DNA from: Eubacteriales bacterium | GTDB taxonomy: Bacteria > Bacillota > Clostridia > Lachnospirales > Lachnospiraceae | Reading direction: 5' to 3' | Length of the DNA: 45,712 nt | Assembly: GCA_030539395.1 (NCBI GenBank) | Contig: JAUNSC010000028.1 | Location: forward strand, 1 to 45,712 | In this document: piece by piece, positions 20,331-38,910 of the stretch | Layout of the letters: each line of letters opens with the position of its first letter | Position numbering within the stretch: position 1 is the first letter of the stretch | Program-made: the position numbers and the translations under genes | Notes under the pieces: model-generated | What the model was told of the DNA's origin: nothing | Database searches by the model: none | Seen by the model: the letters and a program-made list of their open reading frames with translations, nothing else

Positions 20331-20648
20331 ATGAACAACGAAAGAAAAACGATTTGTCCAGAATGTGGAAAACCGGTAAAATACTATGATAGCGTTCCAA
20401 GAATTGTGCGAACAAAAGGAAGACAAACCAGACAAGTACAAGTGCGTCGATTTCGCTGTCCTTGTTGCGGTGGTATACATAGAGACTTGCCAAATTATAT
20501 TTTTCCATATAAACAATACGAAGCAGAGGTTATCCGAGGTGTACTGGATGGGTTTATAACTTGCGAAACTATCGGATACGAAGATTATCCTTGTGAGATG
20601 ACTATGATCCGTTGGAAAACATCGCAGGAATTACAAGCGCTCTTATGA
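20331..20648 (+). CDS. DUF6431-type zinc-ribbon protein
   Basis: The 105-residue protein has two CxxC pairs (CPECGKPVKYYD; CPCCGGIHRDLP) and the segment LPNYIFPYKQYEAEVIRGVLDG, matching the DUF6431 family of small zinc-ribbon proteins related to transposase-type ribbons. No catalytic domain follows and no terminal repeats are seen, so it is not a complete insertion sequence. It is the first gene of the element and its last codons overlap the first 29-nt module. Confidence 0.65.
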   Translation: MNNERKTICPECGKPVKYYDSVPRIVRTKGRQTRQVQVRRFRCPCCGGIHRDLPNYIFPYKQYEAEVIRGVLDGFITCETIGYEDYPCEMTMIRWKTSQELQALL

Positions 20649-20651
20649 AAG
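20623..20651 (+). promoter_or_regulatory. 29-nt module copy 1 (CGCAGGAATTACA / TCTTAT)
   Basis: CGCAGGAATTACA, five bases, then TCTTATGAAAG. It overlaps the end of the DUF6431 gene and precedes the 25-codon ORF at 20665. Fixed spacing to the -10-like hexamer (18 bases from the first C) agrees with the other nine copies. Confidence 0.55.
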
Positions 20652-20664
20652 GAGCGTGATTAAA

Positions 20665-20742
20665 ATGCGTATCAAACAAAAATTTTGGACGGTGGTTGGT
20701 CGTATTTTATATCGAATTGGATATTTAAAAGAGGAGTCCTAA
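20665..20742 (+). CDS. Micro-protein (25 aa), basic amphipathic
   Basis: The ORF opens after GAAAGGAG and ends at TAA 20740-20742. The sequence MRIKQKFWTVVGRILYRIG is cationic with hydrophobic faces, a possible membrane-surface peptide. Its final codons GAG TCC TAA form the 5' arm of the next terminator, an arrangement shared by two other genes in the element; this supports it as a real gene. Confidence 0.5.
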   Translation: MRIKQKFWTVVGRILYRIGYLKEES

Positions 20743-20761
20743 CGAGGGCTCTTTTCTTTTT
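20734..20761 (+). terminator. Terminator module, GAGTCC type
   Basis: GAGTCC (20734-20739) pairs with GGGCTC (20746-20751), loop TAACGA containing the stop codon of the preceding ORF, then a T-rich tract TTTTCTTTT. Confidence 0.75.
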
Positions 20762-20837
20762 GCCTAATTTCCACCGAGATTGTTTTTACTAGCGCTTATT
20801 TTTAACCTAGAATAGCCAGTGAAAGGAGGACGAGTCT

Positions 20838-21257
20838 ATGGGAACAACAATACGTCCGGAGTTATCTCAGAAAAATCCTTACTGGCTTGAAAAGCATAGG
20901 TATTATGAATTGAAACATTTCTGTTTGCAATATCCAATCTGGAGGAAAGCATATTCATCATTAGACGGATTAGCTACCCGTCCGTCAGATCCATTGATGT
21001 TCATAGCAGCAAACACTATGAGCGATCCGACTGCGAGTTGTGCAATCGCAAAGACATTTTATTCTGAACGACTGGATATGGTCAAAGGGGTTGCCGAAGA
21101 GACTGATCCGACATTAACTGATTATATTTTAAAAGCTGTAACGGAAGGCTGGTCATATGACATTCTTAAAGCTAGATTAGGAATTCCATGTTGTAAAGAT
21201 GTTTATTATGACTTGTACAGACGGTTTTTCTGGCTATTGAGTAAGGAGCGGAAGTGA
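20838..21257 (+). CDS. Phage-type hypothetical protein with C-terminal HTH-like segment
   Basis: The 139-residue protein begins with NPYWLEKHRYYELKHFCLQYP and ends in GWSYDILKARLGIPCCKDVYYDLYRRFFWLL, a pattern resembling the end of ArpU/RinA-type phage transcription activators (short helix, turn, recognition-like helix). I cannot name the family with certainty. GAAAGGAGG precedes the start, and it is coupled to the next gene (one base between stop and start). It is a candidate for the factor that reads the repeated 29-nt modules; this is speculation. Confidence 0.6.
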   Translation: MGTTIRPELSQKNPYWLEKHRYYELKHFCLQYPIWRKAYSSLDGLATRPSDPLMFIAANTMSDPTASCAIAKTFYSERLDMVKGVAEETDPTLTDYILKAVTEGWSYDILKARLGIPCCKDVYYDLYRRFFWLLSKERK

Positions 21258-21258
21258 T

Positions 21259-21468
21259 ATGAAGATTGTGGATAAGGCTGTAAAGAAAGTGTATCGGTTC
21301 AACTGCCCGAACTGTCAGAGCAGGCTTGAGGGAGAAAGCCAGGAGTTCGTAGACATCGGCGGAAAGGTAAACAAATTCTTCTGTCCAGTTTGCAGACAAG
21401 ATCGTTATATTACATGGTCTGATTTGCGGAAGCGGATTATTTATGAGGGACAGGACACGCATAAATAG
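21259..21468 (+). CDS. Small zinc-ribbon protein (69 aa)
   Basis: Two Cys pairs, CPNC (about 16-19) and CPVC (about 43-46), separated by 26 residues form a typical zinc ribbon. The remainder is basic. It may bind nucleic acid or a protein partner. The tail overlaps the next 29-nt module. Translationally linked to the HTH-like protein upstream. Confidence 0.65.
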   Translation: MKIVDKAVKKVYRFNCPNCQSRLEGESQEFVDIGGKVNKFFCPVCRQDRYITWSDLRKRIIYEGQDTHK

Positions 21469-21486
21469 CAACTCCTATTATGAAAG
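21458..21486 (+). promoter_or_regulatory. 29-nt module copy 2 (CGCATAAATAGCA / TATTAT)
   Basis: CGCATAAATAGCA, five bases, TATTATGAAAG. It precedes the two-span membrane protein at 21501. Confidence 0.65.
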
Positions 21487-21500
21487 GAGAGTGAATTTTT

Positions 21501-21707
21501 ATGAAAAAATATTTAGCAACAGGTGTAATCGTACAAATATTCATTATTGTATTGAGATGGGTGCTTGGTAAATCACGAAGAATATTTAAAGAAAATAAAT
21601 CGAATGTATTTTTCTGGATTACTTTGTTCCTTGGCTCTATGGTTAATGTGATATTGTGGTCGATTTCTATCGTATGTGAAGTTATTTTAATTAAAGAAGA
21701 AAAATGA
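21501..21707 (+). CDS. Two-span membrane protein (68 aa)
   Basis: Hydrophobic segments lie at about residues 4-23 and 38-63, joined by a basic loop (GKSRRIFKENKS), and the tail is charged (IKEEK). GAAAGGAG is well placed. Unknown function; a terminator follows. Confidence 0.6.
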   Translation: MKKYLATGVIVQIFIIVLRWVLGKSRRIFKENKSNVFFWITLFLGSMVNVILWSISIVCEVILIKEEK

Positions 21708-21723
21708 TATTTTCGAGAAGATT

Positions 21724-21748
21724 GAGCCAGCAATGGCTCTTTCTTTTT
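21724..21748 (+). terminator. Terminator module, GAGCC type
   Basis: GAGCC (21724-21728) pairs with GGCTC (21735-21739), loop AGCAAT, T-rich tract TTTCTTTTT. The downstream gap to 21858 contains CCTAGATTAGAATCCAGT, similar to CCTAGAATAGCCAGT at 20809, and no gene. Confidence 0.75.
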
Positions 21749-21858
21749 ATCCTAGATTAGAATCCAGTACGGAGGTTACAGAAAAACATGCTATTTTGAT
21801 ATTTGAAAAATTGCCCGGGAGGAAATTTTCGAAAAATTTTTGAAAGGAGAAGGACGAA

Positions 21859-22080
21859 ATGCAGACTATTATTTTCTTGGTAATCGGAATCGCGATCGGA
21901 TGTATCTTATCAAGATTTATTCCGAAAAAGATTGTTGGTACACTCAGGATTGATCACTCTGATCCAGACAGCGGACCATATCTGTTCCTTGAAATTAAGC
22001 ATGGTGGAATGGAGACAATGAGAAAGAAGAAATATGTGTTGTTCGAGGTCAATCTAAAAAACTATATTCCGCACAAATAA
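21859..22080 (+). CDS. Membrane-anchored small protein (73 aa)
   Basis: An N-terminal membrane helix (residues 2-19) is followed by a soluble part with the recognisable stretch GTLRIDHSDPDSGPYLFLEI. Similar short proteins are familiar from Lachnospiraceae phage-like regions, as far as I recall, but no function is known. Preceded by TTGAAAGGAG. Its end overlaps a 29-nt module. Confidence 0.65.
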   Translation: MQTIIFLVIGIAIGCILSRFIPKKIVGTLRIDHSDPDSGPYLFLEIKHGGMETMRKKKYVLFEVNLKNYIPHK

Positions 22081-22098
22081 CACTTCCTATTATGGAAC
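22070..22098 (+). promoter_or_regulatory. 29-nt module copy 3 (CGCACAAATAACA / TATTAT)
   Basis: CGCACAAATAACA, five bases, TATTATGGAAC. It precedes the gene at 22132. Confidence 0.65.
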
Positions 22099-22131
22099 TG
22101 AGAAATTTATATTTTTGAAAGGAGAAACAAA

Positions 22132-22548
22132 ATGGATGAAAACAATATTAAGGAATTGTTGAATGAGGAGATTGCTGAGGAGATTCAGGTTTTATCTACT
22201 CTGGCATCCGGAAGTAAAGAAAAATCAACAGCGATTGATGATTTGACGAAGCTGTATAAACTGAGAATCGAGGAGAATAAGAGCGAATGGGACGCTGATG
22301 AAAAGTATAATCGTCGTGTGATGGAAGATGAATCCAACGTACGAGATGATGAGGTGAAGCGTGTCCAGATTGCGGAACAGGTCAAGGATCGATATTCCAG
22401 ACTGGGTATTGCGGCGGCGGAACTCATGATACCGTTGATGTTCTATGGTATTTGGATGAAAAGGGGATTTAAGTTTGAGGAAACTGGAACATACACCTCA
22501 ACGACATTCAGAGGTTTATTCAACCGTTTTAGACCGACAAAAAAGTAA
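22132..22548 (+). CDS. Coiled-coil protein with one membrane segment (138 aa)
   Basis: A long, acidic, helical N-terminal part (about 1-90) is followed by one hydrophobic segment near 95-112 (IAAAELMIPLMFYGIW) and a basic tail. The layout suggests a membrane-tethered helical scaffold. The ribosome binding site GAAAGGAGAAAC has the same form as elsewhere in the element. Confidence 0.6.
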   Translation: MDENNIKELLNEEIAEEIQVLSTLASGSKEKSTAIDDLTKLYKLRIEENKSEWDADEKYNRRVMEDESNVRDDEVKRVQIAEQVKDRYSRLGIAAAELMIPLMFYGIWMKRGFKFEETGTYTSTTFRGLFNRFRPTKK

Positions 22549-22567
22549 GTATTGAGATTCTGAACGG

Positions 22568-22600
22568 GAGGCGTGCTAATCGCATTGCCTCTTCGTTTTT
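22568..22600 (+). terminator. Terminator after the 138-aa membrane protein gene
   Basis: GAGGC (22568-22572) pairs with GCCTC (22587-22591); an inner TGC/GCA pairing extends the stem. Followed by TTCGTTTTT. Confidence 0.65.
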
Positions 22601-22603
22601 CTT

Positions 22604-22632
22604 CGCTAATAATACATTGCTTTTTATGAGAG
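22604..22632 (+). promoter_or_regulatory. 29-nt module copy 4 (CGCTAATAATACA / TTTTAT)
   Basis: CGCTAATAATACA, five bases, TTTTATGAGAG. It lies directly behind the terminator and 86 bases before the zinc-ribbon gene start. Confidence 0.5.
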
Positions 22633-22717
22633 AATAAAGCTTTATCTCTTGAACTGAAGTTACCGGTTTGTGTACAATATGTATATGAGCTGGACAGTAG
22701 AAAGGAGATATTTAGCT

Positions 22718-22945
22718 ATGAGTATTTTTAACGAGGAGCAAATTAAAGCAATGTTCAGTAGAGAGTATATCTGTCGTGAATGCGGAAAAATAATGGAGTT
22801 CGAGGATGAATGGGAAGACACATTAGTTTGTCCCCATTGCGGTCATAGTGTAGAGTTAGATAGATATGGCTGTGAAAATGATGAAGAATATGAAACCTTA
22901 TATCCGACACGAGAAGAAGTATTGGGAACTGCTGACGAGGAATAA
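22718..22945 (+). CDS. Small zinc-ribbon protein (75 aa)
   Basis: CRECGKIMEF and CPHCGHSVEL form the two knuckles of a zinc ribbon, and the tail is strongly acidic (CENDEEYETLYPTREEV). ATG 22718 is chosen because AAAGGAG lies eleven bases upstream; an earlier in-frame ATG at 22670 lacks a ribosome binding site. A weak GGCTC-type stem and T tract near 23010-23026 may be a worn terminator. Confidence 0.65.
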   Translation: MSIFNEEQIKAMFSREYICRECGKIMEFEDEWEDTLVCPHCGHSVELDRYGCENDEEYETLYPTREEVLGTADEE

Positions 22946-23040
22946 TAAGTTTGCAGAAAGTTAGATAATTAAAAACATAAGCTAAGGGAAAGTGTCTTGG
23001 AGAAATCTGAGGCTCTTTCTTTTTTGTTCAGGAGCAGATT

Positions 23041-23400
23041 ATGAGATACCATTATAAGAAACCGGGAATTTACTTATCGATGTACGGCAGAATTTATATT
23101 TGTGAGCATCCGGTTTACAATAGCTGTACATTATTTGAAATTAGAGATAAGGGACTGGCTGTTATACAGCAAAGATTTGATGCGGACACAAAAAGCACCT
23201 GGTGGGGAGAGGTGGATCCATGGCTGACCGATGATTTATATTTGCACCCCCAATTTAAGGAATATTTTGATAAGCGTGCCGGAACGTGTACGGACGGATT
23301 ATATCCAACGGTTACAGTCCGTCAAATTATGTGGGCATTAAAAATGAAGCCAATTAAACGAGAACGCTGGGAAACCGTTTTTGACAGACGAGATATTTAG
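23041..23400 (+). CDS. Hypothetical phage-type protein (119 aa)
   Basis: A soluble, aromatic-rich protein with WWGEVDPWLTDDLYLHPQFK and GLYPTVTVRQIMWALKMKP segments. I do not recognise a function; the good codon use and ribosome binding site (AGGAGCAG) support a real gene. No membrane segment or signal peptide. Confidence 0.65.
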   Translation: MRYHYKKPGIYLSMYGRIYICEHPVYNSCTLFEIRDKGLAVIQQRFDADTKSTWWGEVDPWLTDDLYLHPQFKEYFDKRAGTCTDGLYPTVTVRQIMWALKMKPIKRERWETVFDRRDI

Positions 23401-23401
23401 A

Positions 23402-23430
23402 CGCAAAATCTACAACTCCTTTTATGAAAA
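23402..23430 (+). promoter_or_regulatory. 29-nt module copy 5 (CGCAAAATCTACA / TTTTAT)
   Basis: CGCAAAATCTACA, five bases, TTTTATGAAAA. It starts two bases after the preceding stop and precedes ATG 23459. Confidence 0.6.
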
Positions 23431-23458
23431 TATACGTTTTTACGGAAGGAGAAAATTT

Positions 23459-23614
23459 ATGAGTACAGTAAAAAGACATTTAAGCAACAAGATTCGTATG
23501 TTTGAGGACATGCTATTGCGTAGCAAAAACAACTATGAAATTGAAACTCTGAGAAACGAATTAACGAAAATGCGTATATCATTACAAAAAATGCGATATG
23601 AGAAGGAGTCCTAA
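23459..23614 (+). CDS. Short helical protein (51 aa)
   Basis: A charged, probably coiled-coil peptide (KIRMFEDMLLRSKNNYEIETLRNEL). GGAAGGAG precedes the start. The final codons GAG TCC TAA form the first arm of the terminator, as in two other genes of the element. Confidence 0.55.
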   Translation: MSTVKRHLSNKIRMFEDMLLRSKNNYEIETLRNELTKMRISLQKMRYEKES

Positions 23615-23633
23615 CGAGGGCTCTTTCTTTTTG
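23606..23633 (+). terminator. Terminator module, GAGTCC type (second copy)
   Basis: GAGTCC (23606-23611), loop TAACGA, GGGCTC (23618-23623), then TTTCTTTTT. The hairpin is identical to that at 20734. Confidence 0.75.
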
Positions 23634-23635
23634 TC

Positions 23636-23664
23636 CGCATAAATTGCATCGTCTATTATGAAAC
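23636..23664 (+). promoter_or_regulatory. 29-nt module copy 6 (CGCATAAATTGCA / TATTAT)
   Basis: CGCATAAATTGCA, five bases, TATTATGAAAC, two bases after the terminator T tract. Confidence 0.65.
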
Positions 23665-23693
23665 CTATATGGATTTGAAAGGAGCAAAGGAGT

Positions 23694-23912
23694 ATGGACG
23701 AAGTGAAAATTGTATCTAAATTCACTAGGAGTGTGATTTCCAAACTAATAAAGGCAATGCTACATAAAAAGCTTGGGTACAATGTTGATATTCAACTGAA
23801 TGAAGTGAACGCCACTATTACGGATGGAAAAACACATGTTCATCTGGATGTAGATGCGGAATTGGATAAGGACGAACTTGTTAAGATCCTGAAAAGCATT
23901 GGTTTGAATTAA
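23694..23912 (+). CDS. Hypothetical protein (72 aa)
   Basis: A small alpha/beta protein with a basic N-terminal helix (SKLIKAMLHKKLGY) and an acidic C-terminal half (DVDAELDKDELVKILKSIGL). The internal alternation suggests one beta sheet. No family recognised. Good ribosome binding site (GGAGCAAAGGAG). Confidence 0.55.
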   Translation: MDEVKIVSKFTRSVISKLIKAMLHKKLGYNVDIQLNEVNATITDGKTHVHLDVDAELDKDELVKILKSIGLN

Positions 23913-23918
23913 GAAATT

Positions 23919-23945
23919 GAGCCGGCAGCGGCTCTTTCTTTTTCT
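23919..23945 (+). terminator. Terminator module, GAGCC type (second copy)
   Basis: GAGCC (23919-23923) pairs with GGCTC (23930-23934), then TTTCTTTTTC. It leads straight into a 29-nt module. Confidence 0.75.
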
Positions 23946-23946
23946 T

Positions 23947-23975
23947 CGCAAAATTTACAATTTCTATTATGGAGA
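23947..23975 (+). promoter_or_regulatory. 29-nt module copy 7 (CGCAAAATTTACA / TATTAT)
   Basis: CGCAAAATTTACA, five bases, TATTATGGAGA. This is the closest copy to the consensus. It is followed by a 115-base gap without a gene before ATG 24091. Confidence 0.65.
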
Positions 23976-24090
23976 GACAGAGAATGGCTGATTAGGATAG
24001 TTGAGGTCATCATAATAGTAAGTTTAAGCTTGGTTTACATCTGACTCTCTTTTATTTTTATTCAAATCGAAAGGAGAAAACGAAAATGAT

Positions 24091-24408
24091 ATGAGCATTG
24101 AACAATTTGAGTTGATTATGTGCGATATGTATCAGATGGATGCATGGATGCCGAATCCCGTCTTTGATAAGTATGAATTTGCTAAAAGCAGTTATTCGCA
24201 ATGGGCGATTGGTGAATTTCAAAATTATCTTGTACGGTCACTTTATCCAAGAATGGAAGGAACAATTGATGAGTTTATTAATATGGCAGAAGAGTTTATA
24301 GGAAAAATGGATTATTATTCCACAATTAATTCAGCCAATAGCAGGATGTTTTCAATAGCACGGGATACAGTCGTTGATATTCAAGATATGTTTCGGGCTA
24401 TGAAATAA
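24091..24408 (+). CDS. Hypothetical protein (105 aa), relative of the gene at 25478
   Basis: A soluble helical protein. The spacing of YSQWAIGEFQNYL, an acidic FINMAEEFIGKMDYYS segment and SRMFSIARDTVVDI is matched by the protein at 25478 (YARWTVDEILTSI, FIIKIEYLLHISE, NTIFTIAENTAENL), suggesting diverged paralogues. Function unknown. GAAAGGAGAAAAC precedes the start. Confidence 0.55.
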   Translation: MSIEQFELIMCDMYQMDAWMPNPVFDKYEFAKSSYSQWAIGEFQNYLVRSLYPRMEGTIDEFINMAEEFIGKMDYYSTINSANSRMFSIARDTVVDIQDMFRAMK

Positions 24409-24432
24409 AACGCAAATTGAAAGGGGAAGATT

Positions 24433-25227
24433 ATGAGAAACAAAAATACAATAATGTTATATCTAAAACGAGGTTCACCGACTATTTTGACCTGTATCGG
24501 TGCCATTGGGGTTGTTGCCACTTCAGCTATGGCTGTTCGTGTTACACCAAAGGCACTTAAGCTGATTCACAAGGACAGTCGGATAGAACATAATGGAGAT
24601 CCTTACGCATACACAAAAGCTGAAGCTATTCGATCAGCATGGAAATGTTATATTCCGTCTGTTCTGATCGGAACATCTACAATCGTGTGTATATTTGGGG
24701 CGAATGTTCTAAGCCGCCATCAACAGGCAGCACTGACAAGTGCTTATGCATTGGTTAATAATGCCTATCAGGAATATCGCAGCAAGGTAAAAGAATTATA
24801 CGGCGAAGAAACGCATCAAAGAATTGTAGATTCTATTGCGAAAGACAAGTGTAAGGATGTCTATATTTCCTCACCGGGGATTTTCAATAGTAGTTCTCTG
24901 GATTTCGATGAACATGATCCAGAAGACAACCGATTGTTTTACGATTCATTTTCAAAAAGATATTTTGAAAGTTCTGTTATTCGTGTTATTGAAGCAGAAT
25001 ACCATCTGAATCGTAATTGGTGGTTAGGAGCTGAAATTTGCCTTAATGATTTTTATGAATTACTCGGTTTAGACAATATTGATGGAGGTGATGAGCTTAG
25101 CTGGTTCCCCGAAGATGGAATTAATTGGATAGATTTTAATCATCATAAAACAGTATTGGATGACGGTCTTGAAATATATGTGATCGAATTTGTTTTTACT
25201 CCGAGACTGGCGACCGAATATGATTAA
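24433..25227 (+). CDS. DUF6353-type two-span membrane protein, paralogue 1
   Basis: The 264-residue protein has two hydrophobic segments (about 15-36, PTILTCIGAIGVVATSAMAV, and 72-93), a conserved ATSAMAVRVTPKAL motif after the first, a helical QEYRSKVKELYGEE region after the second, and a C-terminal soluble domain with LNDFYELLG and GGDELSWFPEDG. The same order occurs in the proteins at 26725 and 29036. The family is known only as a domain of unknown function in phage-like regions. The repeated helix-helix-globular design suggests a membrane complex. Confidence 0.7.
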   Translation: MRNKNTIMLYLKRGSPTILTCIGAIGVVATSAMAVRVTPKALKLIHKDSRIEHNGDPYAYTKAEAIRSAWKCYIPSVLIGTSTIVCIFGANVLSRHQQAALTSAYALVNNAYQEYRSKVKELYGEETHQRIVDSIAKDKCKDVYISSPGIFNSSSLDFDEHDPEDNRLFYDSFSKRYFESSVIRVIEAEYHLNRNWWLGAEICLNDFYELLGLDNIDGGDELSWFPEDGINWIDFNHHKTVLDDGLEIYVIEFVFTPRLATEYD

Positions 25228-25229
25228 TT

Positions 25230-25258
25230 CGCAAAATTCACAAACGCTATTATGAAGG
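25230..25258 (+). promoter_or_regulatory. 29-nt module copy 8 (CGCAAAATTCACA / TATTAT)
   Basis: CGCAAAATTCACA, five bases, TATTATGAAGG, beginning three bases after the preceding stop. Confidence 0.65.
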
Positions 25259-25273
25259 GAGGCTATATGCTTT

Positions 25274-25441
25274 ATGAATGGAAAGATTATTAAAGTTATT
25301 GGATTTATTGCAACGGTAGCCGGTGTGGGAGCAAATCTTATTACCGACTGGGTGAGCGAAAAGAAGATGGATGAGAAAATTGAGGAAAAGATCAATGAAG
25401 CATTGGCTGTCAGAGACAGAAAAGATGAGAATGAGTCCTAA
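25274..25441 (+). CDS. Small membrane-anchored protein (55 aa)
   Basis: An N-terminal membrane helix (IKVIGFIATVAGVGANLITDW) is followed by a charged helix KKMDEKIEEKINEALAV. The last codons GAG TCC TAA build the terminator arm. The gene is too short for routine gene callers, but the ribosome binding site GGGAGG and the shared 3' design support it. Confidence 0.6.
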   Translation: MNGKIIKVIGFIATVAGVGANLITDWVSEKKMDEKIEEKINEALAVRDRKDENES

Positions 25442-25460
25442 CGAGGGCTCTTTCTTTTTA
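25433..25460 (+). terminator. Terminator module, GAGTCC type (third copy)
   Basis: GAGTCC (25433-25438), loop TAACGA, GGGCTC (25445-25450), then TTTCTTTTTA. Same hairpin as at 20734 and 23606. No 29-nt module follows here; the next gene starts 17 bases later with a weak ribosome binding site (GAGG). Confidence 0.75.
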
Positions 25461-25477
25461 TTTTTGAGGTCAAGTCT

Positions 25478-25768
25478 ATGAACGAAGACGCAATCCAAAA
25501 AATTCTGAATTATGAAAAAGAGTTTTTGTTTGAACCTTACTTGTGTTGGTCAAAAGAAGACATTCAGAAACAAGCTTATGCGAGATGGACCGTTGATGAG
25601 ATTCTAACATCTATCATGGATCATCCTTTTACAGAACCGGAACTGATTGTAGAAAACTTTATTATCAAAATTGAATATTTGCTACATATTTCAGAAAATG
25701 CGACAGCAAATACTATATTCACAATTGCTGAAAATACGGCCGAGAATCTTCTCGGTCTTATTTTATAA
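25478..25768 (+). CDS. Hypothetical protein (96 aa), relative of the gene at 24091
   Basis: A soluble helical protein whose pattern of aromatic and helical blocks follows the protein at 24091. No catalytic motif. It ends shortly before the C-type-lectin-like gene. Unknown role. Confidence 0.5.
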   Translation: MNEDAIQKILNYEKEFLFEPYLCWSKEDIQKQAYARWTVDEILTSIMDHPFTEPELIVENFIIKIEYLLHISENATANTIFTIAENTAENLLGLIL

Positions 25769-25802
25769 CCACAAAACTTTAATTTGAAAGGAGAAACAAG
25801 AA

Positions 25803-26669: not shown

Positions 26670-26675
26670 GATTAA

Positions 26676-26690
26676 GGGGCCTTGTGCCCC
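26676..26690. repeat. GC hairpin right after the lectin-like gene
   Basis: GGGGC-CTTGT-GCCCC, a perfect 5-bp stem beginning six bases after the stop. Hairpins or cruciforms just downstream of the variable repeat are required in well-studied retroelements. It has only a weak T tract (TGTTTATATTTATT), so it could also be a poor terminator. Confidence 0.5.
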
Positions 26691-26724
26691 TGTTTATATT
26701 TATTAAATTGAGAGGAATGCAATA

Positions 26725-27546: not shown

Positions 27547-27551
27547 TGGTT

Positions 27552-27580
27552 CGCAAAAAATACAATGTCTATTATGAAAA
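27552..27580 (+). promoter_or_regulatory. 29-nt module copy 9 (CGCAAAAAATACA / TATTAT)
   Basis: CGCAAAAAATACA, five bases, TATTATGAAAA. It precedes the gene at 27615. Confidence 0.65.
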
Positions 27581-27614
27581 GATTACATATTTTATTCTGA
27601 AAGGAGAAAACAAA

Positions 27615-27890: not shown

Positions 27891-27910
27891 GAAGTAAAAA
27901 TTTTAGACGA

Positions 27911-27947
27911 GGGAAGGCATCTGTGACAAGGTGCTTTTCCTTTTTTC
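27911..27947 (+). terminator. Terminator before the 67-aa gene
   Basis: GGAAGGCATC (27912-27921) pairs imperfectly with GGTGCTTTTCC (27930-27940), followed by TTTTTTC. Confidence 0.55.
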
Positions 27948-27969
27948 TTTTGGTGTATGGAGGGATATT

Positions 27970-31451: not shown

Positions 31452-31463
31452 GAGGAAAACGAT

Positions 31464-31697: not shown

Positions 31698-31705
31698 AAA
31701 ATGCA

Positions 31706-34700
31706 ATGATTGACTTTATGGTGATTTCAACACGTAGTACGAAGCGTGGCATAATAGAAATCTATCCAAAGTTCATTATAAAAAAAAGTTCTGATCTGAT
31801 GATTCGAGGTGGTGATTTCTATGCTATCTGGATTGAGGAACGTGGTTTATGGTCTACGGACGAACAGGATGCTTTGCAGCTTATTGACTATGAACTGGAT
31901 AGATATGCAAAGGAAAACCGCCAGCATTTTGACTCCGATATAAAAGTCCTGCATATGTGGGATGCTGAATCCGGGATGATCGATTCCTGGCATAAATATT
32001 GTCAGAAACAGATGAGGGATAATTTTCATACGTTGGATGACAAACTTATATTTTCCAATACAGAGACCAATAAAAAAGACTACGCCAGTAAAAAGCTAAA
32101 TTATCCGCTTGAAGCTGGTGATTTGTCCGCCTATGACAAGTTGATGTCCACCTTATATTCCGAAGAAGAACGGCACAAACTTGAATGGGCGATTGGCGCT
32201 ATTGTATCTGGAGAATCTACAAAGCTGCAAAAATTTATGGTGTTGTATGGTGCTGCCGGAACAGGTAAATCTACGGTGCTTAATATTATTCAGCAGCTTT
32301 TTGAGGGATATTATTCCGTATTTGATGCGAAAGCTCTTGGCTCGTCAACGAATTCTTTTGCTTTGGAGGCGTTTAAGAATAATCCATTGGTAGCCATTCA
32401 ACATGATGGGGATTTATCCAGAATCGAGGACAATACAAGACTGAATAGTCTGGTTTCGCACGAATTGATGACTGTGAATGAGAAGTTTAAATCGACTTAT
32501 TCCAATCGCTTTAAATGTTTTCTTTTTATGGGTACTAATAAACCAGTAAAGATTACGGATGCTAAATCGGGCTTAATTCGAAGGTTGATTGATGTATCTC
32601 CATCTGGAAATAAGCTGAATTCGAGAGAATACAAGGATACAGTAAAACAGGTTGGATTTGAATTGGGAGCGATTGCGTATCATTGTCAGGAAGTATATTT
32701 GGATAACCCTGGAAAATATGACGACTATATTCCGCTCACCATGCTTGGAGCATCGAATGACTTCTACAATTTTATTATTGATTCGTACCATGTGTTTAAG
32801 AAAGAAGACGGAACAACGTTAAAAGCTGCGTGGGAAATGTACAAAACCTATTGTGAAGAAGCAAAAGTCGCATTTCCATTTTCGCAGCGAATATTTAAAG
32901 AAGAATTAAGGAACTATTTTCGTGATTTCCAGGAACGATTTAATCTTGATGACGGTTCAAGAGTTCGTAGTTATTATATCGGATTTAGAACTGAAAAATT
33001 TGAAGATCAGACGATAGATGTGCAAGCAAAGCATCATACCAATGTCAGGCAGATTAAATTTGAGGAAGGTGTGCCATCTATATTTGATCAAATGTGTTCT
33101 GATTGTTTTGCGCAATATGCTACAGCGAAGGAAACGCCAACAAAAAAATGGGAGAACGTAAAAACAAAATTATCAGATCTTGACACATCAAAAACTCATT
33201 ATGTAAAAGTTCCGGAGAATCATATTGTAATTGATTTCGATATTCCAGATGAGAATGGAAACAAATCATTCGAAAAGAATGTCGAAGAAGCCAGTAAATG
33301 GCCGCCTACATATGCAGAGCTTAGTAAAAGTGGATGCGGAGTACATCTTCATTATATTTATACAGGAGATCCCGTACAACTGAGTCGTATATATGACGAC
33401 CATATTGAAGTTAAAGTGTTCACAGGTAAAAGTTCATTGCGGCGGAAGCTGTCACAGTGCAACAATTTACCTATCGCGACAATTAGCTCTGGTTTACCAC
33501 TGAAAGGAGAAAACAAAATGGTAAATTTTGAAGCGGTTCAAAGCGAAAAAGGGCTTAGGACACTGATTAAGAGGAATCTTAATAAAGAGATTCACCCAGG
33601 TACTAAGCCTAGTGTAGATTTTATTTACAAGATACTCGAAGACGCATATACCAGCGATCTAAACTATGATGTAACAGACATGCGAAACACTGTGTTGGCA
33701 TTTGCAGCAAATAGCACGCATCAATCTGATTATTGTATTAAACTGGTAAATAAAATGCAGTTTAAGTCGGAAGATGCATCCACAGCCACGAAGAACGATG
33801 CGGCTAAGCTTGTATTTTATGATATTGAGGTTTTTCCTAACCTGTTCCTTGTGAATTGGAAGATTGAAGGGAAGGAAAAGCCTGTTGTAAGAATGATTAA
33901 CCCATCTCCAGGCGAAATTGAAGATTTAATGCGATTTCGTCTCGTAGGATTTAACTGCCGAAGGTACGACAATCATATTTTGTATGCGAGACTTATGGGT
34001 TATACGAATGAGCAGTTGTATCGTCTGTCGCAGAAAATTATTAATGGCGAACCGAACTGTTTCTTTGGGGAAGCTTATAATGTTTCCTATACGGATGTAT
34101 ATGACTTTGCATCTGCCGGAAATAAGAAGAGTCTGAAGAAACTTGAGATTGAGATGGGAAATGTTTCCGAAAAAGAATTATTGAAAAAGGGTTATACCGA
34201 AGCGGAAATCAGACTCATTAAAGCTGGAACGCATCATCAGGAGCTTGGATTGCCTTGGGATCAGCCTGTGCCAGAAGAATTATGGACCAAAGTTGCTGAG
34301 TATTGTGATAACGATGTAATTGCAACAGAGGCAGCATTCCATTATCTGAAAGCAGATTGGACGGCAAGACAGATTCTGGCGGATTTAGCTGGCATGACAG
34401 TGAACGATACCACCAATACTCTAACACAGAGAATTATATTTGGGAATAATCGTAAGCCGCAGAGTGAGTTCCATTATCGAAATCTGGCGGATCCCGTTTA
34501 TGATATAGATGAGGAAACATATACATTCTTAGCTGGAGCATGTCCCGAAATGATGGAGAAGACGCATGGTGAGGATGGAAGTCTTCTTCCATATTTTCCT
34601 GGATATACGTTCGACCACGGAAAATCTATTTATCGTGGAGAAGAAGTTGGAGAAGGCGGATATGTATATTCTGAGCCAGGTATGTACGTTGACGTGGCGC

Positions 34701-35971
34701 TGCTTGATATTGCTTCTATGCATCCGCACAGTGCAATTGCAGAAGTTCTCTTCGGAGTAAGATTCACAACCGCATTCCGAGAGATTGTAGAAGGACGTGT
34801 CAGCATTAAGCATGAGGCATGGGACGTTGTAAATACAATGCTGGATGGAAAACTGACGCCTTATATTCAGAAAGTAATTGACGGCGAATTGACGTCTAAA
34901 GATTTAGCGAATGCTTTGAAAACGGCGATCAATTCTGTTTATGGTCTGACATCTGCATCCTTCGATAATCCGTTCCGTGATCCTAGAAATAAAGATAATA
35001 TTGTTGCTAAGCGTGGAGCCCTGTTTATGATTGACCTTAAAAATGAGGTACAGAAACGGGGCTTTACTGTTGCACATATTAAGACGGATTCCATTAAGAT
35101 TCCTGACGCTACGCCGGAAATCATCCAGTTTGTTATGGATTTCGGTAAGAGGTACGGTTACACCTTCGAACATGAGGCTACATACGAGCGGATGTGTCTG
35201 GTAAACGATGCAGTTTATATTGCAAAGTATAAGGACAGCGGCGAGTGGACGGCTACTGGTACTCAGTTCCAGATTCCTTATGTGTTCAAGAAGCTGTTTA
35301 GCAGAGAAGAAATCATATTTGAGGACATGTGTGAAACAAAATCTGTGAGCAGCGCTTTATATTTGGACATGAATGAAGGACTGCCGGATGTATCTGAGTA
35401 TGAAAAGAAATTGTCAAAAGCAGAGAGCGATTACAAAAAGGGATTGCTTTCTGATATGACTTTTGAGTCAACTTGTAAAGAACTGGTAGAGCCCATTTCA
35501 AAAGGGCATAACTATCGTTTCGTCGGAAAAGTAGGACAATTCTGCCCGATTAAGGACGGTGCCGGGGGCGGTTTGCTGACACGTGAAAAGAATGGAAAGT
35601 ATTATGCCGCAACAGGATCAAAGGGATATCGCTGGTTAGAATCGGAGATGGTAAAAGAACTTGGCAAGGAAAACGATATTGACCGGAAGTATTACGACAA
35701 TCTTGTTGACGAGGCAGTAAAGACCATTTCACAATACGGTGATTTTGAGTGGTTTGTTTCCGATGATCCGTATGTAAAAGAATTTGGAGCGAACGATGCG
35801 GATGTAGATTGCAGTCCTCCATGGGCAATGCCTTGTGGGGAGGAAAAATATGCGACCTGTTATGATTGCCCGTGTTTCGGTGATGACCAGAGCCATATGA
35901 CATGCGGGCTTGGATACGATATTTCAAATATTATTATGAGACGGGTTATGAACCCACCAGAAAACAATTAA
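31706..35971 (+). CDS. SF3 helicase - AEP primase - family B DNA polymerase fusion
   Basis: One uninterrupted 1421-codon frame joins three replication activities. Residues ~1-430 form a D5-type SF3 helicase: Walker A GAAGTGKST near 182 and an SF3 motif FMGTNKPVKI with a late RRLIDV arginine pair. Residues ~480-600 look like an archaeo-eukaryotic primase: IVIDFDIPDENG near 506 (DxD), SGCGVHLHY near 542 (GxH), IEVKVF near 567. From ~605 follows a family B polymerase: ExoI FYDIEVFPN (~702), ExoII FNCRRYDNH (~747), ExoIII YCDNDVIATE (~866), motif A LLDIASMHP (~1000), motif B KTAINSVYG (~1071), motif C KTDS (~1125). All exonuclease and polymerase signatures look intact. At codon 605 the reading frame passes through a perfect ribosome binding site and ATG, so a separate polymerase could also be made. 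SSB follows 18 bases downstream. Confidence 0.85.
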   Translation: MIDFMVISTRSTKRGIIEIYPKFIIKKSSDLMIRGGDFYAIWIEERGLWSTDEQDALQLIDYELDRYAKENRQHFDSDIKVLHMWDAESGMIDSWHKYCQKQMRDNFHTLDDKLIFSNTETNKKDYASKKLNYPLEAGDLSAYDKLMSTLYSEEERHKLEWAIGAIVSGESTKLQKFMVLYGAAGTGKSTVLNIIQQLFEGYYSVFDAKALGSSTNSFALEAFKNNPLVAIQHDGDLSRIEDNTRLNSLVSHELMTVNEKFKSTYSNRFKCFLFMGTNKPVKITDAKSGLIRRLIDVSPSGNKLNSREYKDTVKQVGFELGAIAYHCQEVYLDNPGKYDDYIPLTMLGASNDFYNFIIDSYHVFKKEDGTTLKAAWEMYKTYCEEAKVAFPFSQRIFKEELRNYFRDFQERFNLDDGSRVRSYYIGFRTEKFEDQTIDVQAKHHTNVRQIKFEEGVPSIFDQMCSDCFAQYATAKETPTKKWENVKTKLSDLDTSKTHYVKVPENHIVIDFDIPDENGNKSFEKNVEEASKWPPTYAELSKSGCGVHLHYIYTGDPVQLSRIYDDHIEVKVFTGKSSLRRKLSQCNNLPIATISSGLPLKGENKMVNFEAVQSEKGLRTLIKRNLNKEIHPGTKPSVDFIYKILEDAYTSDLNYDVTDMRNTVLAFAANSTHQSDYCIKLVNKMQFKSEDASTATKNDAAKLVFYDIEVFPNLFLVNWKIEGKEKPVVRMINPSPGEIEDLMRFRLVGFNCRRYDNHILYARLMGYTNEQLYRLSQKIINGEPNCFFGEAYNVSYTDVYDFASAGNKKSLKKLEIEMGNVSEKELLKKGYTEAEIRLIKAGTHHQELGLPWDQPVPEELWTKVAEYCDNDVIATEAAFHYLKADWTARQILADLAGMTVNDTTNTLTQRIIFGNNRKPQSEFHYRNLADPVYDIDEETYTFLAGACPEMMEKTHGEDGSLLPYFPGYTFDHGKSIYRGEEVGEGGYVYSEPGMYVDVALLDIASMHPHSAIAEVLFGVRFTTAFREIVEGRVSIKHEAWDVVNTMLDGKLTPYIQKVIDGELTSKDLANALKTAINSVYGLTSASFDNPFRDPRNKDNIVAKRGALFMIDLKNEVQKRGFTVAHIKTDSIKIPDATPEIIQFVMDFGKRYGYTFEHEATYERMCLVNDAVYIAKYKDSGEWTATGTQFQIPYVFKKLFSREEIIFEDMCETKSVSSALYLDMNEGLPDVSEYEKKLSKAESDYKKGLLSDMTFESTCKELVEPISKGHNYRFVGKVGQFCPIKDGAGGGLLTREKNGKYYAATGSKGYRWLESEMVKELGKENDIDRKYYDNLVDEAVKTISQYGDFEWFVSDDPYVKEFGANDADVDCSPPWAMPCGEEKYATCYDCPCFGDDQSHMTCGLGYDISNIIMRRVMNPPENN
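33503..33520 (+). promoter_or_regulatory. Ribosome binding site and ATG inside the replicase frame
   Basis: AAAGGAGAAAACAAAATG is in frame and encodes KGENKM at the primase-polymerase border. It is identical in sequence and spacing to the translation start of the gene at 27615 and nearly so to that at 22132. It would start an 818-residue stand-alone family B polymerase. Confidence 0.6.
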
Positions 35972-35989
35972 AAGCAAAGGAGAATTACT

Positions 35990-36478
35990 ATGTCATACAA
36001 AAACGTTAATAACATTATTATTGAAAACGCTCGTATTATTTTCCGTAATTTCAGAGGCGAAGAAGACAAGTATAATCGGGCAGGCAACAGAAATTTCTGC
36101 GTTATTATCGAAGATCCCGAGCAGGCACAGCAGTTGGCTGAGGATGGATGGAATGTGAGGATTCTGGCTCCGAGGGATGTAGATGATGAGCCGAGGCATT
36201 ATATTCAGGTCGCTGTAAGCTTTAAAAACATTCCGCCTAAGGTGTTCATGATCACAAGGAAAGTAAAGACGCCTTTGGACGAGGAGTCCATTGATACGCT
36301 TGACTTTGCAGAGATCCGTAATGTTGATTTGACAATCAGACCATACAATTGGGAAGTCAATGGAAAAACCGGTATTAAGGCTTATCTGAAAACCATGTAT
36401 GTCACAATCGAGGAAGACGAGTTTGCGGATAAATATGCTGAAAACGAGGGACCGGACGAAGTTCCGTTTAACTTATAA
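35990..36478 (+). CDS. Single-stranded-DNA-binding-like protein
   Basis: The 162-residue protein directly follows the replicase gene. It opens with beta-rich [19 protein letters not shown] and contains [23 protein letters not shown], the pattern of phage SSB-type OB proteins. It ends in the acidic tail [12 protein letters not shown], which resembles the DDIPF tip by which SSB recruits partner proteins. AAAGGAG is well placed. Function inferred from fold pattern, tail and position. Confidence 0.65.
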
Positions 36479-36506
36479 TTAAGGTGCCGATAAAGCTCTG
36501 ATTATG

Positions 36507-36516
36507 TGTGTACACA
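36507..36516. promoter_or_regulatory. Perfect palindrome TGTGTACACA, candidate operator
   Basis: A 10-bp perfect palindrome in the 85-base gap between the SSB-like and methylase-like genes. It could bind a small dimeric repressor. Single copy, so support is weak. Confidence 0.3.
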
Positions 36517-36563
36517 TATGGAGATAAGAGGAAATAGCCTTACTTTTCGAAAGGGGAAATGGA

Positions 36564-37502
36564 ATGGCATTTTGGAAGAAAAAACGAAAGCGGCAGACCA
36601 CAGCCAAAAAGAAAACAAATGTCGCTTCTATGAAACCAAAATTGGAATATAAACCGCCAACATGGCAGCCTACAATTCCAATGCCAGATAAAAAATTAGG
36701 TGATGTTTCAACAAAATCGCCGGATGAGAAAATTCCAGAAACAAAGCCGGTTGAAAAACATCCAGATTATCGTAAAGAATTTTTGAATGCGTTTCAGAAG
36801 CTTACATATCAGCATAGGACGTGGGATATTTGGAGAGATTTCATCATTATGTTTGCATGTTCTTTATCTAATTCAATGGATAAAGCGCGCTACGATGAAC
36901 GTGAAAAAAGATATTTGCTCATTATAAAAAAATACAACAAACAGGAACAAATGTTATTTCCTGAATTAGCTGCTCATACAGTCATGGCTTTGGAAGATAA
37001 TCCGGAACAAGACTTTCTGGGCAGCATTTTTATGGAATTAAAACTTGGAAATGAATCGGGAGGCCAATTTTTCACACCATATCATGTGTGCCAGTTAATG
37101 GCTGATATTACAATTGGCGATGTGGCAGCGCAGATAGAGAAAGACGGATATGTAACGATACATGATCCATGCTGCGGAGCAGGTGCTACATTGATTGCCG
37201 GAGTCCATAGCGCGAGAAAACAACTGGAAAAAGCAGGCTTGAATTTTCAGAATCATGTTCTTGTGGCAGCTCAGGATATTGACGAGATTGTTGCACTGAT
37301 GTGTTATATCCAGCTTTCACTTCTAGGGGTAGCGGCCTATATCAAAGTTGGAAATGCCTTGACTGATCCGATGACAGGAAACGATAGTCTTGATAACTAC
37401 TGGTTTACCATGATGTATTATTCCGATGTTTGGACAATGCGGAGGATATTCCATAGAATGGATGATTTGACGAAAGGAGAAACGAATGAACGAGAGACTT
37501 AA
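36564..37502 (+). CDS. N6-adenine-methylase-like protein lacking an evident catalytic NPPF/Y
   Basis: The 312-residue protein has a very basic N-terminal tail (KKKRKRQTTAKKK), a helical region, and an N6-methylase-type SAM domain: GQFFTPYHVCQLM (about 173), motif I DPCCGAGATLI (about 203), AAQDIDEIVALM, then VGNALTDPM. In true M.HsdM/Eco57I enzymes a (N/D)PP(F/Y) motif follows; here the sequence reads SLDNYWFTMMYYSDVWTMRR and stops. It may therefore bind SAM/DNA without methylating, or use another geometry. A helicase gene follows, and no restriction or specificity subunit is seen. Confidence 0.7.
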   Translation: MAFWKKKRKRQTTAKKKTNVASMKPKLEYKPPTWQPTIPMPDKKLGDVSTKSPDEKIPETKPVEKHPDYRKEFLNAFQKLTYQHRTWDIWRDFIIMFACSLSNSMDKARYDEREKRYLLIIKKYNKQEQMLFPELAAHTVMALEDNPEQDFLGSIFMELKLGNESGGQFFTPYHVCQLMADITIGDVAAQIEKDGYVTIHDPCCGAGATLIAGVHSARKQLEKAGLNFQNHVLVAAQDIDEIVALMCYIQLSLLGVAAYIKVGNALTDPMTGNDSLDNYWFTMMYYSDVWTMRRIFHRMDDLTKGETNERET

Positions 37503-37638
37503 TAAGCTGTTGGGAGAACTTGAATTCTTCCTGAATCATTCTCTAGTTGAAGATGATTGTACCGATAAGCAAAACGAGATGTATTCGGATATGGCTAATC
37601 TGAAAAATAGCATTGAGGCTGTACTAGAGGAGGCTTAA
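37486..37638 (+). CDS. Small acidic helical protein (50 aa)
   Basis: Begins inside the end of the methylase-like gene after GAAAGGAG and ends three bases before the helicase start. LNKLLGELEFFLNHS and NLKNSIEAVLEEA look like a helical hairpin. It could be a helicase accessory peptide; position is the only evidence. Confidence 0.5.
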   Translation: MNERLNKLLGELEFFLNHSLVEDDCTDKQNEMYSDMANLKNSIEAVLEEA

Positions 37639-37640
37639 AC

Positions 37641-38879
37641 ATGGCGGGTGTGGAATTATACGACTACCAACTTGCCGCGGTTGAAAAAATGAAAAATGGA
37701 TGCATTCTTTGTGGAGGGGTTGGGAGTGGAAAATCCCGCACTGCTTTAGCTTATTATTATCTGCAAAATGGTGGTGCTGTAGAGTGCCTAATGGGGCTTG
37801 AGGATTATCTTCCTATGGATGATCCGCCAAAGGATTTGTACATCATCACAACCGCAAGAAAAAGAGATACACTTGAATGGGAGGGTGAGCTTTCGCCCTT
37901 CCTTCTTTCTGTTCACGAAGACCTTGATTTTTATCGAGAAGGGCATAAGGTAGTCGTCGATTCGTGGAACAACATAAAAAAATATGCGGAAACAAAAGAC
38001 GCATTCTTTATATTTGACGAGCAGCGTGTGATCGGTTCCGGAGCATGGGTAAAAGCATTCCTAAAAATTGCAAAAAGTAATGATTGGATTCTACTGTCCG
38101 CAACTCCGGGCGATACGTGGGAAGACTATATTCCGGTATTTGTTGCTAACGGATTCTATAAGAATCGGACGGAGTTCATACGAGAGCATGTTGTTTACAG
38201 TCGATTTACGAAATACCCAAAGATTGATAAATATATCAATACCGGTAAACTAATTCGGTTACGCAACAGCATTCTTGTCAATATGGATTTCAAAAGGCAG
38301 ACAGTATCGCATCACGAGGACGTGTTTGTTAAGTATGATATTTCAAAGTATAAGGATGCTGGCAGAACAAGATGGGACCCATTTAAGGATGAACCGATTG
38401 TGAACGCAGCAGGTCTTTGTTATGTATGGCGAAAACTTGTAAATGTGGATAAGTCCCGTCAGGTAGCATTGTTGCAGATATTAGAGAAACATCCAAAAGC
38501 AATTATATTTTATAACTTTGATTATGAGTTGGAGATTTTGAAGGAGGTATGTGCTAGAAATGGTTACGAGATTGCCGAATGGAATGGACATAAACATCAA
38601 CCTGTGCCTGACAGCGGCAAGAGGTGGACGTACCTGGTACAGTATAATGCTGGAGCAGAAGGATGGAACTGCATTAAAACTGATACCATTATCTTCTTTT
38701 CTCAGAACTACTCCTACAAAATCATGCAGCAGTCAGCAGGACGAATTGATAGATTGAATACACCTTATAAAGATTTGTACTATTATCATCTAAAATCCCG
38801 TTCTGGAATTGATCTTGCAATTAGTCGGACGTTGAGGGATAAGAAAGATTTTAATGAATCAAGGTATGTGAAATGGTAA
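37641..38879 (+). CDS. SF2/SNF2-like helicase of phage type
   Basis: The 412-residue protein begins LYDYQLAAVEKM (Q-like motif), Walker A GGVGSGKSRTA (about 25-35), motif Ia YIITTARKRDTLEW, motif II FIFDEQR (DEQR rather than DEAH), motif III LLSATPGDTWEDY, and in domain 2 GAEGWNCIKTDTIIFF and QQSAGRIDRLNTPY (motif VI). It is compact, without accessory domains, as in phage recombination or replication helicases. AGAGGAGG precedes the start. Confidence 0.88.
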   Translation: MAGVELYDYQLAAVEKMKNGCILCGGVGSGKSRTALAYYYLQNGGAVECLMGLEDYLPMDDPPKDLYIITTARKRDTLEWEGELSPFLLSVHEDLDFYREGHKVVVDSWNNIKKYAETKDAFFIFDEQRVIGSGAWVKAFLKIAKSNDWILLSATPGDTWEDYIPVFVANGFYKNRTEFIREHVVYSRFTKYPKIDKYINTGKLIRLRNSILVNMDFKRQTVSHHEDVFVKYDISKYKDAGRTRWDPFKDEPIVNAAGLCYVWRKLVNVDKSRQVALLQILEKHPKAIIFYNFDYELEILKEVCARNGYEIAEWNGHKHQPVPDSGKRWTYLVQYNAGAEGWNCIKTDTIIFFSQNYSYKIMQQSAGRIDRLNTPYKDLYYYHLKSRSGIDLAISRTLRDKKDFNESRYVKW

Positions 38880-38881
38880 AA

Positions 38882-38910
38882 CGCGTGTTTTACACGCCCT
38901 ATAATACGAG
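38882..38910 (+). promoter_or_regulatory. 29-nt module copy 10 (CGCGTGTTTTACA / TATAAT)
   Basis: CGCGTGTTTTACA, five bases, TATAATACGAG, two bases after the helicase stop. More diverged than the others, but the spacing is identical and its hexamer is the perfect sigma-A -10, which supports a promoter role for the family. GCGTG-TTTTA-CACGC also forms a small hairpin here. Confidence 0.5.

Follow-up and report, generated by a model that had tools for sequence, protein, structure and literature searches.

A recurrent motif between prophage genes as the probable promoter of a single-chain two-barrel phage RNA polymerase

Which polymerase reads a short module that recurs, always on one strand, among the small genes of a prophage? 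This question is raised by a contig of a Lachnospiraceae bacterium (Eubacteriales bacterium, assembly GCA_030539395.1, contig JAUNSC010000028.1), in which we analyzed the 45,712 nucleotides (nt) from position 1 to position 45,712, here called the window. Judged by eye, the window is chromosome-like up to ~19.9 kb and prophage from ~20 kb onward. A first-pass annotation had described ten copies of a 29-nt module in the prophage part, with a -10-like box and a conserved box near -30 but no -35 box, and had read them as promoters of small genes that depend on a phage activator. We propose instead that a single-chain two-barrel DNA-dependent RNA polymerase (RNAP) of family PHROG 4291, encoded by the phage, uses the motif as its promoter, a reading to which we assign a probability of about 0.82. 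It is supported by the motif itself, its rigid spacing, strand and gene context, its co-occurrence with the polymerase, the parallel divergence of motif and polymerase in lactococcal phages, and the fold class of the polymerase. The copies in the window, with their matrix scores and the open reading frames (ORFs) that follow them, are listed below; motif positions are counted from the first base of the CGC box.

20623..20651, + strand, putative promoter copy 1 (CGCAGGAATTACAAGCGCTCTTATGAAAG), 29.4 bits, ahead of a 25-aa ORF from 20665
21458..21486, + strand, putative promoter copy 2, 35.1 bits, ahead of ORF 21501-21707
22070..22098, + strand, putative promoter copy 3, 30.3 bits, ahead of ORF 22132-22548
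22604..22632, + strand, putative promoter copy 4, 27.8 bits, ahead of ORF 22718-22945
23402..23430, + strand, putative promoter copy 5, 31.5 bits, ahead of ORF 23459-23614
23636..23664, + strand, putative promoter copy 6, 32.8 bits, directly 3' of a terminator-like sequence and ahead of ORF 23694-23912
23947..23975, + strand, putative promoter copy 7, 39.9 bits, directly 3' of a terminator (23919-23934) and followed by a degenerate tRNA-like RNA
25230..25258, + strand, putative promoter copy 8, 35.6 bits, ahead of ORF 25274-25441
27552..27580, + strand, putative promoter copy 9, 40.7 bits, ahead of ORF 27615-27890
38882..38910, + strand, possible promoter copy 10, 14.9 bits, an actinophage-like variant without G25, ahead of ORF 38923-39159

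The scores come from a weight matrix built on 368 copies from related viral contigs, with the window copies excluded. Nine copies scored 27.8-40.7 bits with this matrix and the site at 38882 scored 14.9 bits, while the next-best site outside the ten, on both strands of the 45.7 kb, reached 12.6 bits; 20 dinucleotide shuffles of the window gave no match of at least 16 bits with a matrix that included the window copies. A strict pattern (CGC-N7-RCA-N5-TNTTATGRRR), designed with knowledge of the window copies, had ten matches in the 3.37 Mb host genome (77 contigs). Nine of these are the strong copies, which all lie in the prophage portion of the window, and the tenth is on contig C44; the reversed pattern had none in the same 3.37 Mb. 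One match of our first pattern, on contig C71, was rejected, as its spacing was one base longer and it had no matrix score. Thus all ten sequences described by the first-pass annotation are present, nine of them as strong copies, while the one at 38882, which lacks the conserved G25 and escapes the strict pattern, is marginal. Most copies do lie between genes, but three overlap the 3' end of an ORF: 20623 that of 20331-20648, 21458 that of 21259-21468, and 22070 that of 21859-22080. All copies are on one strand, several lie directly 3' of terminators (for instance the one at 23947), as had been noted, and, for every copy except 23947, a ribosome-binding site with its start codon comes 17-90 nt past G25.

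The same motif was recovered from related viral contigs, which we sampled as loci with a relative of DUF6353 (the best 80 of 119), a domain found in three proteins of the prophage. With a matrix from eight window copies, a 13-bit threshold, and the window pieces L001-L006 excluded, 582 matches fell on the gene strand and 7 on the opposite strand over 93 loci, redundancy retained. For a sequence logo, we kept copies of at least 16 bits, excluded those near locus ends, and merged near-identical ones (419 to 377 copies); because the copies were selected with a window-seeded matrix, the logo is sharpened. Its short form is TNCGCRAAAWTTACA-N4-CTWTWATGRAA and its refined form, of ~29-32 nt, is T-N-CGC-R-AAA-W-TT-ACA-N2-T-N-C-T-W-T-W-A-T-G-R-A-A. 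CGC occupies positions 1-3 (99% each), positions 5-10 are AT-rich, CA follows at 12-13 (100 and 99%), then T21 (99%), A23 (97%), T24 (99%), and G25 (99%), followed by R-A-A, and conservation declines past ~+5, counted from G25. In agreement with the first-pass annotation, the 377 copies share no conserved -35 box, with weak -35 matches in individual copies only. The gaps between boxes were exactly the standard ones in 374 of 411 box combinations, and 20 of the remainder are probably CGCGCG sites in a second register. A ribosome-binding site and start codon lay within 60 nt of 307 of the 377 copies, compared with 15% of random positions, and 51 of the 377 were well inside an ORF of at least 80 codons, compared with 74%. 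A first scan of 60 relatives had found one or two pattern matches in 11 other genomes; a contig of one of them, G006, holds two good copies, and this genome carries a copy (L112) that closely resembles copy 1. Since the copies sit on a single strand, ahead of ribosome-binding sites, several of them behind terminators, and are conserved in relatives, their reading as promoters for a set of small phage genes, one part of the earlier proposal, is strongly supported by sequence context.

The polymerase came into view through the tenth match of the strict pattern. Contig C44 is 5.8 kb long and encodes, consecutively, a VRR-Nuc protein, an exonuclease, a 915-residue polymerase, and a small protein, with the motif at its head. 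The polymerase is the one strong PHROG 4291 match in the genome; a second match of 18.5 bits, inside the window, was regarded as noise. Because of this single strong match, and because DUF6353 is confined to contig C31 in this genome, the simplest reading is that the window and C44 belong to a single prophage split over contigs. In related phages the arrangement recurs: of 80 RNAP loci, 66 (near-duplicates included) have at least 1.2 kb of upstream DNA, and in 65 of these a same-strand copy of the motif precedes the polymerase gene by 905-1502 nt (median 934). The opposite strand has no copy in any of the 66. The association also holds in the reverse direction. From the listed matches of the DNA pattern, we took 26 contigs absent from the DUF6353 list (all 25 of at least 40 kb and one freely picked of 37.8 kb), and 24 of them encode the polymerase, compared with none of four control contigs, three of them shorter than 9 kb. 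A reversed control pattern, shorter by one letter, matched 4 stretches, compared with at least 120 matched by the motif pattern. Similarly, the polymerase is encoded by 26 of the 30 DUF6353 contigs (from the 80) that reach at least 40 kb. A polymerase match above 1000 bits was found in six of 295 genomes sampled from the order (in one, G362, the N-terminal part is broken), and five others have matches below 30 bits. Pattern counts in the six are 10, 6, 1, 12, 7, and 7, and the other 289 genomes have 0-2 (1 or 2 in 27 of them), so that all five genomes with at least three matches are polymerase genomes (p = 3.3e-10).

We also surveyed the proteins of this phage, with ORF 27971-28153 skipped, for relatives in ten other RNAP phages. 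In this survey (ALTERNATIVES), the three DUF6353 proteins, phrog_4079, the DNA polymerase, the annealing protein, and the helicase had relatives in 10/10, as did the VRR-Nuc protein, the exonuclease, the polymerase, and the small phrog_4303 protein. Among these, the RNAP is the sole evident transcription protein. The product of 20838-21257, which the first-pass annotation had put forward as a candidate activator, fared poorly, with a relative in just one of the ten phages.

This survey also bears on a special case that is compatible with our proposal, in which recognition of the motif by the polymerase requires a phage cofactor. The most likely such cofactor is the following protein:

L110 243-485, - strand, phrog_4303 small protein, encoded directly 3' of the polymerase, with relatives in 10/10 polymerase phages

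A small gene directly follows that of the RNAP in the operon on C44 and in 9 of 10 records (in contig89 it is not so annotated), and the non-virion RNAPs (nvRNAPs) of phages AR9 and phiKZ require several subunits. Nevertheless, the polymerase carries helix-turn-helix (HTH)-like segments of its own, and any binding of the phrog_4303 protein to DNA or RNAP would be conjectural. We consider a strict need for this cofactor possible, with the odds against it.

What kind of polymerase is this? The Pfam model for RNA-dependent RNA polymerases (PF05183) did not detect it at E 0.001, whereas PHROG 4291 did; the T7-type profile PF00940 had no match in the genome, but the control genomes were equally silent. 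A sequence search against PDB chains gave no clear relative, the best hit having an E of 0.0012 over an N-terminal stretch. The motif DFDGD is invariant among the polymerases compared (26 of the 80 RNAP loci), and 13 polymerases, spanning from our own to the lactococcal ones (42-43% identical), all have SGADFDGD. Pfam HTH-type matches lie near the C-terminus in 8/8 polymerases scanned, and sigma-70 region 4 models are among the HTH-type matches; the N-terminal ones are mostly weaker. In a structure model of a close relative (pLDDT 76, pTM 0.58), the best fold match in the PDB was QDE-1 (E 1.2e-6 over 958 columns), followed by plant RDR2 and then by large subunits of cellular RNAPs (E above 0.001). 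On this model, the PHROG 4291 protein is predicted to be a single-chain RNAP of the two-barrel (double-psi beta-barrel) class. We found 250 phage records with this polymerase. The polymerases of Circum, Kenosha, and Rima, of ~900 residues and in PHROG 4291, are annotated as 'RNA-dependent RNA polymerase' or 'HTH DNA binding domain protein', and public labels at L102 39356-42031, L103 37772-40474, L104 36944-39730, and L366 20513-23173 include RNA-dependent RNA polymerase, HTH protein, and tail fiber protein. The protein under these labels looks like a DNA-dependent two-barrel RNAP. In genomes G079, G080, and G086 (L137-L142), a single open frame of 993-1003 residues is matched by the polymerase profile in two pieces that overlap, suggesting that a segment was inserted or repeated near profile position 665-708.

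The implied RNA start bears on the choice between a phage polymerase and that of the host. Copy 7 is followed by an RNA rather than by a protein-coding gene:

23971..24055, + strand, degenerate tRNA-like RNA, in whose fold the terminal stem closes at the conserved G25, with a U-tract at its end

This RNA was undetected by ARAGORN and its fold z-score is just -0.17, but intact relatives exist behind motifs in related loci. Such RNAs stand directly behind the putative promoter in many relatives, with examples at L009 313-386, L022 5369-5440, L021 6616-6686, L108 ~19560-19646, and L109 2935-3006. In these relatives the D and T arms are present, the anticodon loop often has the wrong size, CCA is mostly missing, and the acceptor stem closes near +1 and runs into a U-tract; the RNA may be a phage mimic of tRNA. 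ARAGORN, applied to 50 of the 80 DUF6353 loci, gave 21 tRNA or tRNA-like genes, 19 of them directly behind the motif, with 5' ends at position 28 (11), 27 (4), 29 (2), 23 (1), and 31 (1), some of the loci being near-identical. When six of the RNAs were folded from position 25, the terminal stem closed on the first nucleotide and was followed by a U-rich run in five; z-scores against shuffles were -3.3, -2.7, -2.4, -1.7, -1.1, and -0.2. In addition, 92 of the 377 copies, including copy 2, have a ribosome-binding site that begins at +1..+5 (often GAAAGGAG) and no other before the start codon. A start ~7 nt past TATWAT, as with host sigma-A, would cut away both the tRNA-like 5' ends and these ribosome-binding sites. 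The two-barrel nvRNAP of phiKZ initiates at the G of its TATG late promoters (PMC4666361). From the tRNA-like 5' ends, the ribosome-binding sites, the folds, and the phiKZ start, we place +1 at G25 and infer that the RNA probably starts near this base rather than ~7 nt downstream.

This placement weighs on the alternative closest to the first-pass annotation, in which host sigma-A RNAP uses TATWAT as its -10 box and a phage activator at the CGC and ACA boxes substitutes for the -35 contact in the manner of MotA. TATWAT suits a host -10, no -35 is conserved, the boxes would lie near -30 and -20 if TATWAT spans -12..-7, and regulated small genes would fit as well. We nonetheless consider it unlikely: TATWAT is too near the implied start, so that a host-type start would truncate tRNA-like RNAs at the 5' end and cut off ribosome-binding sites; the motif is retained in Faecalibacterium and actinobacterial phages alike, with the phage RNAP tracking it across host phyla; and the candidate activator occurs in one of ten phages where the polymerase occurs in all ten. 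That the motif is no promoter at all but an RNA-level or DNA-structural element (a leader motif, or a processing or recombination site) would fit its near-constant placement right before ribosome-binding sites and tRNA-like RNAs, but is very improbable given that conservation peaks ahead of the implied RNA start and declines past ~+5, that several copies directly follow terminators, and that the motif precedes unrelated genes.

Under our proposal, the polymerase, either by itself or aided by a phage cofactor, would bind the CGC and ACA boxes as duplex DNA, about one helical turn apart, perhaps via its own N- and C-terminal HTH segments. It would then melt TWTWAT and initiate at the next G, making G25 the +1 and giving transcripts that begin GRAAR. 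Most copies would drive a small gene and one a tRNA-like RNA, the copies often having terminators of their own, and the further copy ahead of the VRR-Nuc/exonuclease/polymerase operon would let the polymerase amplify its own synthesis.

To see how far this code extends, we scanned named phages, covering parts of most genomes. Circum (Arthrobacter), Kenosha (Gordonia), and Rima (Streptomyces) have 9, 8, and 13 copies of at least 14 bits in the parts scanned, on the gene strand only. Matrix matches numbered 5 in Camille (Microbacterium), 5 in Pippin15 (Curtobacterium), 2 in Scap1 (Streptomyces), 4 in contig89 (saliva), and 14 in FP_oengus (Faecalibacterium), each phage having them on a single strand. 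The control phage phiC31 and the scanned parts of FP_Mushu and c2 had none; sets of four shuffles of 1706 and of c2 gave one match each. The lactococcal polymerases are the most diverged among those aligned, and their promoters are likewise. With looser patterns, lactococcal phage 1706 shows ten copies of TTTTACA-N5-TATAGTAGA or TATAGTGAA, several with CRCA replacing CGCR. ACA-N5-TATARTR is common to the lactococcal and the other variants, and the CGC box is lineage-specific. The loosest core pattern also matches controls (c2 2 and 1, SPbeta 2 and 1). We lean, with some reserve, toward one promoter code with dialects across phages of Firmicutes and Actinobacteria, read by a single two-barrel RNAP fused to sigma-like HTH readers.

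Several observations weigh against our proposal. Motif and RNAP occur in one conserved phage lineage, so that co-occurrence alone is no proof of direct reading, and ten other proteins of this phage equally have relatives in 10/10 RNAP phages. Some records carry the motif without the RNAP (4 of the 30 and 2 of the 26 contigs above, and the MT835485 scaffold); these may be fragments. Genome G043, with no RNAP match, has two good motif copies 1 kb apart, and lone matches of 22-23 bits occur in two relatives' genomes (L088, L095). The TATWAT box is also host -10-like, the ARAGORN start falls at position 23 in L042 and at 31 in L065, and just three of the six folded RNAs have a z-score below -2. 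The structure model aligns to QDE-1 with a TM score of just 0.30 and an rmsd of ~19 A. Lactococcal phages 1706 and P078 give one matrix match each, their variants requiring the looser patterns, and P078 has no CGC box, its ten core copies including eight with TTTTACATRCCCTATAATGARA. Finally, SPbeta, with the distant polymerase YonO, has no match above 14.0 bits in 50 kb. Also set aside were 4 of the 14 loose-pattern matches in P078, which were dissimilar to the others, and an 897-residue ORF in MT835485, initially read as the polymerase, which matches tail families.

The surrounding prophage offers further context. Its part of the window encodes the three DUF6353 proteins, a DNA polymerase, an annealing protein, and a helicase, the DNA polymerase being a marker of the phage group that has the motif and the RNAP:

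31706..35971, + strand, prophage DNA polymerase, phrog_4210 (2065 bits), with relatives in 10/10 RNAP phages

Terminator-like hairpins are over-represented in 19950-39200 (25, compared with 10.0, sd 2.5). Near-identical terminators (GAGTCCTAACGAGGGCTC, GAGCCAGCAATGGCTC) stand behind different small genes at 20730-20755, 25433-25450, 21724-21739, and 39158-39173, as if promoter-gene-terminator cassettes had been duplicated. The DUF6273 protein at 25803-26669 has a C-terminus (FGVAYYGGASFSGGVRPEFWLVR) that resembles, by eye, target proteins of variable-region systems.

In the open-licence PMC literature we found no description of the motif, which does not imply its absence from print. Klyczek 2017 (Arthrobacter phages) contains none of the terms promoter, RNA polymerase, and intergenic. 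In a paper on Microbacterium phages, intergenic repeats are described for clusters EC, EG, and EI, and sequences associated with starts for EF; in the 12 of 18 places covered, those on EL (Camille) mention neither. Phage polymerases with promoters of their own are a known kind, while the promoter code of the PHROG 4291 family was not found in the parts of the literature searched. If the reading of one code with dialects holds, phages of several genera would carry a largely autonomous transcription system. Such a system, at present mislabeled 'RNA-dependent RNA polymerase' or 'HTH protein', would have a self-amplifying polymerase that also drives promoter-small gene-terminator cassettes, a tRNA mimic among them. 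There would then be a promoter code for a whole phage RNAP family of which we have so far found only annotations such as 'RNA-dependent RNA polymerase'. It would come with hundreds of natural promoter variants paired with polymerases, some of them in cultured phages (Arthrobacter, Gordonia, Streptomyces, Lactococcus). The code could explain transcription in the 250 phage records, could yield a compact orthogonal transcription system, and could clarify promoter finding by a two-barrel polymerase that lacks a separate sigma factor.

How does the proposed system compare with known ones? The middle promoters of T4, which depend on MotA/AsiA, combine a -10-like box with an upstream box near -30 and have no -35, and in these features they resemble the motif. 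They differ in that here the implied start is too near TATWAT and a phage polymerase is present; moreover, a conserved activator was not found, the only candidate being 20838-21257, with no MotA profile run. The P23-45 polymerases gp64 and gp96 are also two-barrel phage RNAPs with repeated promoter motifs of their own upstream of mapped starts, but those motifs, GC-rich (assigned to gp64) and AT-rich (gp96), belong to a Thermus phage (PMC10770324). Late promoters of the AR9 nvRNAP, a phage RNAP of multi-subunit type, read A(-11)ACA-6N-UA/G(+1) and resemble ours in an upstream ACA box and, on our placement of +1, in a start right after T, but their ACA is ~4 nt nearer the start and they depend on uracil in the DNA (PMC7598289). 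YonO of SPbeta is likewise a single-chain phage DNA-dependent RNAP, a distant relative of multi-subunit RNAPs from a Bacillus prophage (PMC5467207), but blastp gave no significant similarity between YonO and our polymerase (E 0.55), and no matrix match exceeds 14.0 bits in 50 kb of SPbeta. As of 2017 its promoter sequence was still to be determined, and whether it requires helpers was left open (Forrest 2017, PMC5467207); our proposal, if true, makes the YonO-type promoter question testable. In SPbeta, CATTTATGARGG-type repeats lie at L113 31152-32834, between yonN and yonK and upstream of yonK, where the literature puts the YonO start, and are possibly the YonO promoter. The published YonO start has the coordinate 2225998 in B. 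subtilis 168. A close parallel is phiKZ, which has a two-barrel phage RNAP and a short AT box ending in a G that is +1, and whose middle promoters carry AAanTTACc centered at ~-24, resembling the AAAWTTACA of our motif (PMC4666361). Its nvRNAP has several subunits and a late consensus no longer than TATG (PMC4666361), whereas here a single chain would read a motif of ~29 nt with CGC and ACA boxes, in other phages and other hosts.

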